This document shows, piece by piece, positions 43,381-50,948 of a DNA stretch of 64,000 nucleotides. The first letter of the stretch is position 1. Every line of letters begins with the position of its first letter. This DNA comes from Parvivirga hydrogeniphila (GTDB lineage: Bacteria; Actinomycetota; Coriobacteriia; Anaerosomatales; Anaerosomataceae): positions 554,662 through 618,661 of the forward strand of contig NZ_JAMCCO010000001.1 of the NCBI RefSeq assembly GCF_023371205.1, in the 5' to 3' direction. The notes under the pieces are model-generated. The model did no database searches. It saw nothing but the letters and a program-made list of their open reading frames with translations, and was not told the DNA's origin. A program made the position numbers and the translations under genes.

Positions 43381-43402
43381 GCGCCTGGACCCTTCAGCGG
43401 TC

Positions 43403-43434
43403 GAGGCCCCGAGGGCATGCGCCTTCGGGGCCTC
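43403..43434 (+). terminator. Terminator after groEL
   Basis: GAGGCCCCGAGGGC pairs with GCCTTCGGGGCCTC in a 14-bp stem with one mismatch and loop ATGC. It lies 23 bases after the groEL stop and separates the chaperonin operon from the exported-protein cluster. Confidence 0.8.
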
Positions 43435-43457
43435 GTGCCGTTCGAAATCGTGAAACT

Positions 43458-43581: not shown

Positions 43582-44124
43582 ATGCGTACGCGTGTCATTT
43601 GCGCGGTCTTGCTCGCGGCAATGATGTTGGTGACACCAGCGGTTGTCGCAGCAAAGACTGCCAGGAACTACTGCAACGATTGGTCGGACATCGGGGGCGG
43701 CGCGATGTGGCCGGTGGCCGAGAACGCCGACGACTTCCAGATCCAGAAGGGCTATGCGGTCGTCAATGGTCGGTATGACTCGTGTTCTGCGAACTACAAC
43801 ATCGCTGCTCTCACTGGGGACACGCCGTGCTCGATGGCCATCTGGATGGGCTGCTACACCCTGAACGACCCGGGAAGCGCTGGAGACAGCCTGCCGTGGG
43901 CGTGCTGCTACGCGGGGGTCGACCATTCGATGGGCTTCTCGAAGAGCATCACCATGGGCAGCTGGGCCGGTCACTACTCGTACGGGTACTGGCGGTCGCT
44001 CACAAACGGCAACTACACGAACAAGGCGATGGATGACGGGGAGGCCTATGTGCGGTCGAAGCACCTCGGCCTGGCAGGCGGCTACGACTCGCACGGGTAC
44101 GTCGGGCTGAACATGAAGATTTAG
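43582..44124 (+). CDS. Secreted cysteine-rich protein of unknown function
   Basis: I do not recognise the family. The 180-residue product has a clear Sec signal peptide, with basic MRTR, a hydrophobic stretch to residue 20 and a likely cleavage after VVAA (residue 24). The mature part has six cysteines (31, 68, 83, 91, 108, 109), an even number that could form three disulfides, and is rich in aromatic residues, Gly and Asn (HYSYGYWRSLTNGNYTN). It is likely extracellular. ATG 43582 follows GGAGGGGG; a GTG at 43579 is also possible. It leads a three-gene group with a PepSY-like protein and a lipoprotein. Confidence 0.75.
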   Translation: MRTRVICAVLLAAMMLVTPAVVAAKTARNYCNDWSDIGGGAMWPVAENADDFQIQKGYAVVNGRYDSCSANYNIAALTGDTPCSMAIWMGCYTLNDPGSAGDSLPWACCYAGVDHSMGFSKSITMGSWAGHYSYGYWRSLTNGNYTNKAMDDGEAYVRSKHLGLAGGYDSHGYVGLNMKI

Positions 44125-44133
44125 GGGGCTTCG

Positions 44134-44928
44134 ATGAAGAGGGTGTTGCTGAGCGCGTGCCTGCTCGTATCGAGCGTCACGGCCGTTCTAGGCGCGCGGC
44201 TGGCGTTGGCCGAGGCCTTGAGCTCCGCTGAGCGCATCGGCTCGGAAGCGATGCGACTCACGGGTGCTCGATCTGTCCGGCTCCGCCCGGTTGCCGACGG
44301 TGTGTTCTCGGGCGTCGATGGCTTGAGCGAATGGGTCGATGCCCTCACCGGCGAGGAGTATGGCTGGAGTCGGAACGGCCAGTACATCTTCCGCTATGCC
44401 GACCCGCGGGCGTACGCTCCCCCGGTAGGTTCAAGCGATATCGGAGAGAGCCGGGCGAAAGCGATAGCGGCGGCGTGGGCGAACCGGGCCTACGCGGGCG
44501 GGTCGCTGGCAGGCATGGCAGTGAGCTGCACGTGCAAGGAAGAGGGGACCGATCCGGTGACGGCGGAATACCTCGTCGAGTACCGGCGGTACGCGGGCAC
44601 GGTACGAACGTGCGACCACATCGCGATCCGTGTGAACGGGTCTTCGGGTGCGGTGATGAGCGTCGAGCAGGACTACGACGTCATTTCAGTCGGTCTCTCT
44701 CCACAGGTCGGCAGCGATGAGGCACGATCGATCGCCGCGCGCGAGCTGGGAGTCCCCGTCGAGTGCTGCACGGCATACAACTTGGAGGTCGTGAAGAGCC
44801 TGCAGGGGGTGCAGCACCTGGTGTGGGTGGTGCAGGCCCGTACCGGTGACGAGGAGGTCGGGGGTGAAGGCGTCGAGGTCGTCGACGCGCACTCGGGAAA
44901 GGCGCTGGACAGTGGCAAGAGCTGGTAG
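44134..44928 (+). CDS. Exported protein with two PepSY-like units
   Basis: The 264-residue product has an N-terminal signal peptide with cleavage probably after LALA (residue 26). Two segments, about residues 105-185 and 190-264, each run from an AR/AK-rich helix to a beta pattern ending in a turn like NGSSGAVMSV or VDAHSGKALD, which is the usual PepSY layout. PepSY domains often inhibit peptidases or sit in cell-envelope proteins. No peptidase is seen here. Several cysteines (SCTC, TC, CC) in the mature part could form disulfides. It starts nine bases after the preceding secreted protein, so they are probably co-transcribed. The domain call is from pattern only. Confidence 0.65.
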   Translation: MKRVLLSACLLVSSVTAVLGARLALAEALSSAERIGSEAMRLTGARSVRLRPVADGVFSGVDGLSEWVDALTGEEYGWSRNGQYIFRYADPRAYAPPVGSSDIGESRAKAIAAAWANRAYAGGSLAGMAVSCTCKEEGTDPVTAEYLVEYRRYAGTVRTCDHIAIRVNGSSGAVMSVEQDYDVISVGLSPQVGSDEARSIAARELGVPVECCTAYNLEVVKSLQGVQHLVWVVQARTGDEEVGGEGVEVVDAHSGKALDSGKSW

Positions 44929-45406
44929 GACGGCGCTGGCGCTGGTTTCGTGCGTTCTGCTCGTCGCCTGTGTTTCGTGCAGTCGGACAGAACTCGAGCG
45001 GCGCATCAAGAGCGTGCACGGTGACAGGATCGACACGTACCGCGTCTTGAAATCACCGGAGGGCGATCCGCGTCTGCAGGTGGCGCTGGTGCTGCGTGGC
45101 GAGCAGAGGCCGTCCATGGCGCAGATGTGCGCGATCCTGGCGACGGCGGCCCGAGAGTCGCAGGATGGGACTGTCGCTGTCAGCTACGCGGTGACTCGCC
45201 GGGACGGGACATCGGACACGATCATGATGAGCTGGTGTGCGGACACCGGCGATCTCATCCTGTGGGAGGGGCGCGCCCCTGGGCCGAAAGGAGAAGGCCT
45301 GTCGACAGAATTCCCCGTGTCGTATGCACGAGATGTGACTCTCGAACAGATCGAGTCGGCATCAAAAGGAGCATCGCTGGAGATGGATGCTTGGCTGACG
45401 GAATGA
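44912..45406 (+). CDS. Putative lipoprotein of unknown function
   Basis: Starting at GTG 44912, which overlaps the previous gene by 17 bases, the product is 164 residues. It begins with a basic segment and a hydrophobic stretch that ends in the lipobox LVAC, so it is likely to be anchored to the outer face of the membrane. The rest shows two short parts with no motif I know (VHGDRIDTYRVLK and EFPVSYARDVTLEQ). It may interact with the two exported proteins encoded just upstream. The longer frame from 44846 is an out-of-frame extension within the PepSY gene. Confidence 0.65.
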   Translation: MARAGRTALALVSCVLLVACVSCSRTELERRIKSVHGDRIDTYRVLKSPEGDPRLQVALVLRGEQRPSMAQMCAILATAARESQDGTVAVSYAVTRRDGTSDTIMMSWCADTGDLILWEGRAPGPKGEGLSTEFPVSYARDVTLEQIESASKGASLEMDAWLTE

Positions 45407-45430
45407 TCTGGCCCGCTCGACGGCGAGCAA

Positions 45431-45460
45431 GCATGAGGCCCCGCCCCCGGGGCCTCATGC
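45431..45460 (+). terminator. Terminator after the exported-protein cluster
   Basis: GCATGAGGCCCCG and CGGGGCCTCATGC form a perfect 13-bp stem around loop CCCC. It lies 24 bases after the lipoprotein stop and closes the three-gene group. Confidence 0.85.
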
Positions 45461-45473
45461 CGTCTCAGTGCGC

Positions 45474-45479
45474 TATCAT
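45474..45479 (+). promoter_or_regulatory. Possible -10 of the deca-cysteine gene
   Basis: TATCAT lies 26 bases before the GTG at 45506. No -35 can be named because the upstream bases belong to the terminator hairpin. Confidence 0.3.
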
Positions 45480-45505: not shown

Positions 45506-45853
45506 GTGAAGCGTCAATTCTTGGCCGAGTGGCACCGGCTGAAGATCGAGCACACGCACGACCGTGATCAGCACAACAACTACGGGTGCTTCAACGTCGA
45601 GGCGTGCCGCAACTGCAACTACGTGTACAACTCGCGTGCGGCGATAAGCTGCCACAACTGCGACAGCGTCATCGAGTGCGTCCAGTGCGTCGACTGTCGG
45701 GACTGCGCGTACTGCGTCGGCTTGAACGGAGCGCGGTTCCACATCCTGAACCGGGAGTACTCCGAGCAGGAGTACTACGAGAAGCTGCACGAGCTGGGCA
45801 TCGACTGGAATGTGCAGGCCTTCGACCCGCTCGATCCGTACGCCTCCCTCTAG
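45506..45853 (+). CDS. Small protein with ten cysteines in CxxC repeats
   Basis: The 115-residue product is not exported. Its cysteines are at 28, 34, 37, 49, 52, 58, 61, 64, 67 and 70; the last five recur every three residues (ECVQCVDCRDCAYC), which suggests a small repeat fold or a metal-binding scaffold. A short segment after it, FHILNREYSEQEYYEKL, resembles a motif that I recall from zinc-ribbon proteins of uncultivated bacteria, but I cannot name the family. The GTG at 45506 has GGGAGG upstream. It stands alone between a terminator and ychF. Confidence 0.8.
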   Translation: MKRQFLAEWHRLKIEHTHDRDQHNNYGCFNVEACRNCNYVYNSRAAISCHNCDSVIECVQCVDCRDCAYCVGLNGARFHILNREYSEQEYYEKLHELGIDWNVQAFDPLDPYASL

Positions 45854-49919: not shown

Positions 49920-50948
49920 ACTGTCTGAGGCGGTCGCTGCGCTGGACGTGGAAACGACTCGGGGTCTTGTCGCACGACCTTTCGCGAACTGGGACGACGC
50001 GCTGGATTCTCTGGCGGCCGCAGCGCGCTTTGAGCCGTTGCTCCTCGTGCCGGATGAATTCCCCGAGATCAAGGCGACGGCTCCGGACATCGAAGGAATA
50101 CTGCGGGCGTTCCTCGACAGGGCCCGCGGCATGACGAGACTCAAGGTCCTGCTATGCGGGTCGGCGGGGTGCCGATGTATCTCTCATGGTGGGACCAGTC
50201 TGCTTCTGTCCGCGACAACATCGAGCGCTTGTTCTGCACCCCGGGAGCACCTCTGCTGACAGAAGGGCAGCTGCTGCTTGCAACAGAAGGGGATGCGAGC
50301 GGCCTTGCCGGCATCGCGCTGAAGGCGATCGCAGCGGGGCGTACGCGTCATCAAGAGATCGCCGATGCCGTCGGAACCGAGCCGTCACGGCTGTTGGCTC
50401 GGCTCGTGCAGCTACGGCTCGTCGAACAGGTAGTGCCAGTGACCGAGAATCCTGCGCGCACCCGGAGGAAGCGGTATCGGATCGCCGACAACTACCTGGC
50501 GTTCTGGCTGAAGTACGTTGAGAGATACCGCTCGCAGATCGAGCGGGGGCTCGGGGCCCCGGTTGCTGCGCTCCTCGAGTCGAGCCTGGACGACGCGATG
50601 GGCGCACCGTGGGAGGAGGCCTTCCGCTGACATCTCGTCCGGATGATCGCAAACGGCGAGCTTCCGCGTGACATCGTCGCCCTCGGTCCATGGTGGAACG
50701 AGGCCAGCTCCGTGGAGATCGACGCGGTGGGGCTTTCGGGACGGCCTGGAACGGCCGTCCTGCTCGGCGAGGCCAAGTGGCGCAAGAAGGTTGATGCCTC
50801 GGCTCTGGTGTGGGAGCTTCGCGAGAGGTCAAAGGCGTTGCCGAGCGTCGCTGAGTCGCCGGTCTACGCAGTGTGCGCTCGGGAACGGCTCGACAACGTC
50901 CCGAATGGGGCCGTCCCGATCACCGCCGCTGAGGTATTCGGCGTATGA
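49900..50948 (+). pseudogene. Decayed DUF234-type AAA ATPase
   Basis: Three pieces of one gene remain. From about 49900 a frame encodes a fragment with the Walker B-like segment [11 protein letters not shown] and a later LLCGSAG, but the P-loop part is missing. At about 50150 the frame shifts, and from 50154 the homology resumes with [11 protein letters not shown] and [16 protein letters not shown], typical of DUF234 ATPases. A TGA at 50628-50630 interrupts FR-HLVRM; the same frame then continues to 50948 with GPWWNEASSVEIDAVGL and GEAKW, the end of such proteins with its nuclease-like core. Intact members are near 450 residues. Function is almost certainly lost. Confidence 0.8.

Follow-up and report, generated by a model that had tools for sequence, protein, structure and literature searches.

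Restraint of secreted metallopeptidases is a known role of PepSY propeptides. According to a published account, YpeB and SleB are encoded in one operon, and the N-terminal domain of YpeB inhibits SleB in vitro (PMC6660665). Peptidases of clan CD, as described in two papers, have a dyad of His and Cys at the ends of two strands, with Gly adjacent to the His (PMC4357240, PMC12445089). Searches of open papers gave no listing that describes a clan CD peptidase partnered by a PepSY protein.

The window analyzed here is a stretch of 64,000 nucleotides from Parvivirga hydrogeniphila. Three open reading frames, here called P1, P2, and P3, lie in a row with a short gap or overlap (Table 1), as the initial annotation had described. 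They could represent a secreted C25-like peptidase, a YpeB-type PepSY guardian, and a lipoprotein, together forming an accessory cassette whose enzyme is in decay or a pseudoenzyme in this organism. We consider this composite reading to be evenly balanced between right and wrong.

Table 1. Positions in the window of the three genes, their flanking hairpins, and sites inside the genes.
Feature	Position	Strand	Basis or remark
P1	43582..44124	+	180 aa; ATG start, GGAGG upstream
P2	44134..44928	+	264 aa; start 9 bases past the end of P1
P3	44912..45406	+	Likely GTG start at 44912, overlapping the 3' end of P2; no family assigned
Predicted groEL terminator hairpin, left border of the cassette	43403..43434	+	Folding; comparison with G003
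Hairpin 3' of P3, likely end of the trio transcript	45431..45460	+	Folding; comparison with L001
Site in P1 at which about 61 residues are absent relative to G005, including the predicted catalytic His strand	43777..43788 (approximate)	+	Alignment with L001 at the protein and DNA levels
Codon of the predicted nucleophile Cys91 of P1, kept (GCYT motif)	43852..43854	+	Alignment of homologues
PepSY unit at the C-terminus of P2 (approximately residues 188-262), modelled better than the rest	44695..44919	+	VIA

Both hairpins fold well. The region 43395-43450 reaches -42.7 kcal/mol (z -7.8 against shuffles), and the region 45420-45475 reaches -32.1 kcal/mol (z -4.3 against shuffles). A T-run is absent from both, and neither was listed by the terminator scan. 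In G003, a genome of the same genus without the trio, groEL has a like hairpin after it; a Cys-rich gene lies about 106 bases further downstream, with ychF next to it. Because of this hairpin in a trio-less genome, the upstream hairpin is assigned to groEL as its own terminator and not to the cluster. The strong folding claimed in the initial annotation is confirmed for both hairpins, but the framing of the cluster by the first one is not. On the other side, L001, which shares its contig with G005 (a member of the same genus), has no comparable hairpin within the 75 bases preceding the next gene.

The genes groEL and the Cys-rich gene adjoin in all four trio-less genomes read at this site (G003, G089, G007, and G013). 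Since they are neighbors in these genomes, the trio is interpreted as an accessory insertion within a conserved neighborhood, between groEL and the Cys-rich gene. The latter (45506-45853) encodes a small protein with CxxC repeats, located between groEL and ychF. It is 94% identical in G005 and is found in five of the eight genomes searched. With no Pfam or NCBIfam match, it is a conserved gene without a name. Elsewhere in the window, at 49948-50948, overlapping open reading frames in different frames together resemble a broken ATPase, putatively of the DUF234 type; this may be a pseudogene.

P1 has a signal-peptide-like N-terminus followed by exactly six cysteines, both of which had been noticed before, and is predicted to be secreted. 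A view of cysteines or disulfides as its key feature is not supported: only two of the cysteines are invariant in an alignment of four sequences. Orthologues of P1 are found in G005, G125, and G111. P1 and its relatives have no naming match in Pfam, NCBIfam, or PADLOC. The family scans of P1, P2, P3, and their relatives returned a PepSY match for the G055 relative, two PepSY matches below threshold, sub-threshold DUF4901 matches, and Big_2/SH3_3 domains in a long protein of G020; all other matches were weak. Sequence searches of PDB yielded nothing convincing.

In the full-length relatives of P1, a hydrophobic stretch leads to His-Gly. At a distance of 47-65 residues, a second hydrophobic stretch leads to [Gly/Ala]-Cys-x-Thr, after which a helix-like stretch and then a Gly-rich strand follow. 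The Cys after a hydrophobic stretch, preceded by Gly or Ala, is seen in all seven P1 homologues including the window. His-Gly after a hydrophobic stretch is seen in five of the seven; it is His-Ala in G005, and the His is deleted in the window. At the level of the primary sequence, this arrangement corresponds to the signature of clan CD (caspase/gingipain). As a control, a loose form of the pattern was fitted by 11 of 756 open reading frames of at least 150 residues at the loci examined. Eight of these rows belong to the P1 family (five distinct proteins), and the other three are unrelated, their His not being preceded by a hydrophobic stretch.

A profile of six P1 homologues, from which the window was excluded owing to its deletion, was compared by hhalign with Peptidase_C25 (PF01364) proteins from the phylum. 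The score is 29.8 (P 0.0027), with Cys aligned on Cys, and in global mode His-Gly is also aligned on His-Gly. None of 200 column shuffles scored as high (maximum 20.1), and reversed C25 scored 13.3. For comparison, C25 scored 23.3 against C11, both being accepted clan members. When G055 or G020 was left out, the score was 20.5 or 20.3, respectively, and the trio members of G005, G125, and G111 alone gave 22.2. The cut-off of PF01364 was reached by no P1 homologue, and the genome search found no PF01364 match in G000. The AlphaFold model of P1 from G005, based on two sequences, has a pLDDT of 33.5 and is unusable for judging a caspase-haemoglobinase fold. Based on the profiles, P1 appears to be C25-like and not a C25 member, and the homology is fairly well supported.

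The resemblance to Peptidase_C25 consists of the His-Gly and the Cys after hydrophobic strands, and of the Cys, helix, and Gly-rich strand being in register. P1 differs from C25 in its smaller size, in extra segments between the His and the Cys, in the lack of a Pfam match, and in its location beside a PepSY gene, while the window copy has no His. Clostripain C11 (PF03415) shares the order HG...[GA]C with P1. It was rejected as a relative, with no significant profile similarity (P 0.39-0.78).

It is rather unlikely that P1 is something other than a peptidase. HG and GC would then be structural motifs of an unrelated secreted family, and P2 would be a general PepSY chaperone or sensor. This would be in line with the lack of a curated family match, with a similarity to C25 that is modest and partly reliant on divergent members, and with the missing of an intact His-Gly in two members of the genus, G005 and the window. 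However, a hydrophobic stretch with HG and a hydrophobic stretch with [GA]C recur at similar spacing in five divergent homologues, and the Cys and the next Gly-rich strand are in register with C25. We keep to the C25-like peptidase as the preferred reading of P1, with proteolysis as its predicted activity.

With P1 alone as a query, matches were obtained in three of the 396 genomes of the class. The P1 profile matched four of the 69 genomes of the order: the window, G005, G125, and G111. All four share the order P1-P2-P3. A check of co-occurrence had been suggested in the initial annotation, with the prospect that the genes might not stay together in relatives. This prospect failed because the genes of the trio do co-occur in relatives, where they are kept as a unit. 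The cassette of G005 is located at the same groEL site, and that of G111 is located after ychF. The trio is absent from G003 and G089, which belong to the same genus as the window. Pairwise dN/dS against G005 is 0.18 for P1, 0.22 for P2, and 0.48 for P3. Because the order is kept in four genomes and because of these ratios, the conservation of the trio is judged to exceed chance. The ratio of P1 over the aligned codons indicates that P1 was constrained for much of its history.

A broad P1 profile matched 16 of the 396 class genomes at E<=0.05. Seven genomes at E<1e-9 were kept, and nine at E 0.003-0.045 were dropped as being at the chance level for 396. Three of the dropped genomes (G299, G178, and G062) were inspected, and the profile matched in parts only. 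The surface protein encoded by G020 (L058:2-2587; at least 862 aa) carries bacterial Ig-like domains, SH3 domains and, at its C-terminus, a P1-like domain of the clan CD type. It was rejected as a P1-P2 pair, as the gene downstream has no P2 match. Three P1 homologues used as tblastn queries had no match in plasmids, and one had none in phages; viral_contigs also gave no match.

The P2 profile matched nine of the 69 genomes of the order: the four trio genomes, G063 (with P1), G079, G127, G083, and G135. No P1 was found by the P1 profile in the fetched stretches of the last four. The P1 of G063 is divergent and lies beside a P2 relative. Used as a query, it led to the P1 of G055, where the gene immediately downstream is once more a PepSY gene; this P2 had been missed by the order-wide P2 search. 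The genes downstream of P1 match the P2 profile in both G055 (P 2.9e-5) and G063 (P 4.5e-5), and reach P 4.9e-10 when aligned together. A P2-type gene thus adjoins P1 in six out of six P1 loci of the order, four as trios and two as pairs (G063 and G055). The P3 search matched eight of the 69 order genomes; the trio genomes and G079 are counted, and three further weak matches (E 0.001-0.009) were left out of the count. The orthologues of P3 are in G005, G125, and G111. Near polA in G079, a P2 relative is accompanied by two tandem P3-like lipoproteins and no P1 (L035:231-1052 and L036:2-1289). As in G079, the PepSY and lipoprotein genes can apparently persist without the peptidase-like gene.

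P2 of the window has no Pfam match. Its orthologue P0007 has a sub-threshold match to PepSY (PF03413) at 19.7 bits against a cut-off of 24, and the P2 relative of G055 is a clear match at 41.6 bits. The P2 model, based on two sequences, has a pLDDT of 62.7. Among solved structures, Foldseek gave a single match at E<=0.001, the YpeB C-terminal domain (5boi, E 1.5e-4). The top VIA matches are CD1622 (4exr; Z 9.5), YpmB (2gu3; Z 8.2), and YpeB (Z 7.7), and the matched region is residues 187-261 for 4exr and YpmB. Propeptide-bearing fungalysin (Z 6.7) and vibriolysin (Z 5.6) were also found by VIA. Judged from the model, P2 is probably an exported PepSY protein, and this homology is well supported. 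The two putative PepSY units of P2 show no significant similarity when compared with each other. P3 is a small lipoprotein with a lipobox-like LVAC, in agreement with the initial annotation. The statement there that no family could be named still applies to P3 but no longer to P2, which is assigned to PepSY, or to P1, which is C25-like by profile.

P1 of the window shows 69% identity to that of G005 over the aligned residues, and it is 61 residues shorter (180 vs. 241). The missing segment contains the His strand, and the frame remains open. Because about 61 residues including the predicted catalytic His have been lost, P1 of the window is probably inactive. It is most likely a decaying enzyme or a pseudoenzyme. 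The P1 gene of G055 contains an in-frame stop, and that of G063 contains a frame change near its start; these changes could stem from decay or, as the genomes are drafts, from sequencing errors.

The whole trio of the window might be mainly a decaying remnant, with P1 being pseudogene-like after the deletion and with P2 and P3 persisting temporarily or for another purpose. Such a state could be read from the deletion with the catalytic His, from the disrupted P1 genes of G055 and G063, from the trio-less genomes G003 and G089 of the same genus, and from G079, where P2 and P3 occur without P1. On the other hand, all three frames are open, and P1 has a low dN/dS and is better conserved than P2 and P3, although constraint before the deletion could explain this. 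We regard a mere remnant as unlikely, and prefer a cassette in which the enzyme has decayed or become a pseudoenzyme.

It had also been suggested that P1 is an exported cargo with immunity or anchoring partners. As a contact-dependent or secreted antibacterial toxin, P1 would suit the patchy distribution in the class (3/396), the fast divergence of the trio relative to its neighbors, and the encoding of exported proteins in one unit. However, PADLOC matched no toxin or defence family, and relatives of P2 and P3 exist without P1. The immunity role in particular is weakened by the P2 and P3 relatives of G079, which have no adjacent P1. A toxin is very unlikely in our judgment. The other part of the suggestion, an exported actor with a PepSY protein as an inhibitor-type partner, fits the clan CD-like relatives of P1 and the modelled likeness of P2 to YpeB.

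P2 resembles YpeB in its predicted PepSY fold and in that its gene adjoins the gene of a secreted hydrolase, if P1 is indeed one. P2 differs from YpeB in being shorter and in having no counterpart of the tested N-terminal domain of YpeB. SleB is a cortex-lytic enzyme, whereas the partner of P2 is a putative cysteine peptidase; neither P1 nor its relatives matched a Pfam family of SleB-type cortex hydrolases. The PepSY propeptides of M4/M36 metallopeptidases (vibriolysin and fungalysin) are similar to P2 in the modelled fold. Unlike them, P2 is a separate protein, and its partner is again a putative cysteine peptidase. By analogy, the best-supported view is that the trio would resemble the SleB-YpeB pair or a metallopeptidase with its PepSY propeptide in action, and is a member of neither.

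In this reading, P1 of the intact relatives would cut proteins outside the cell by its His/Cys dyad. P2 would bind P1, maintaining its fold and holding it inactive until its activity is required. P2 may thereby be a trans-acting guardian of P1, comparable to YpeB for SleB. P3 would probably work with P2 at the membrane. The enzyme step was most likely lost in the organism of the window. A more specific proposal is an undescribed system of two or three genes. In it, a small secreted cysteine peptidase of the caspase/gingipain type would have its own dedicated guardian in a free-standing PepSY protein that is YpeB-like and exported, and the loss of the dyad would have led to a pseudoenzyme in one genus. 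We offer it only tentatively, as somewhat doubtful.

If true, the principle of restraint by PepSY would extend from metallopeptidases to caspase-type peptidases, another catalytic class. A function would also be suggested for a family without a name in the libraries searched. The broken copy in the window could then serve as a natural experiment on the partners' dependence on enzyme activity.
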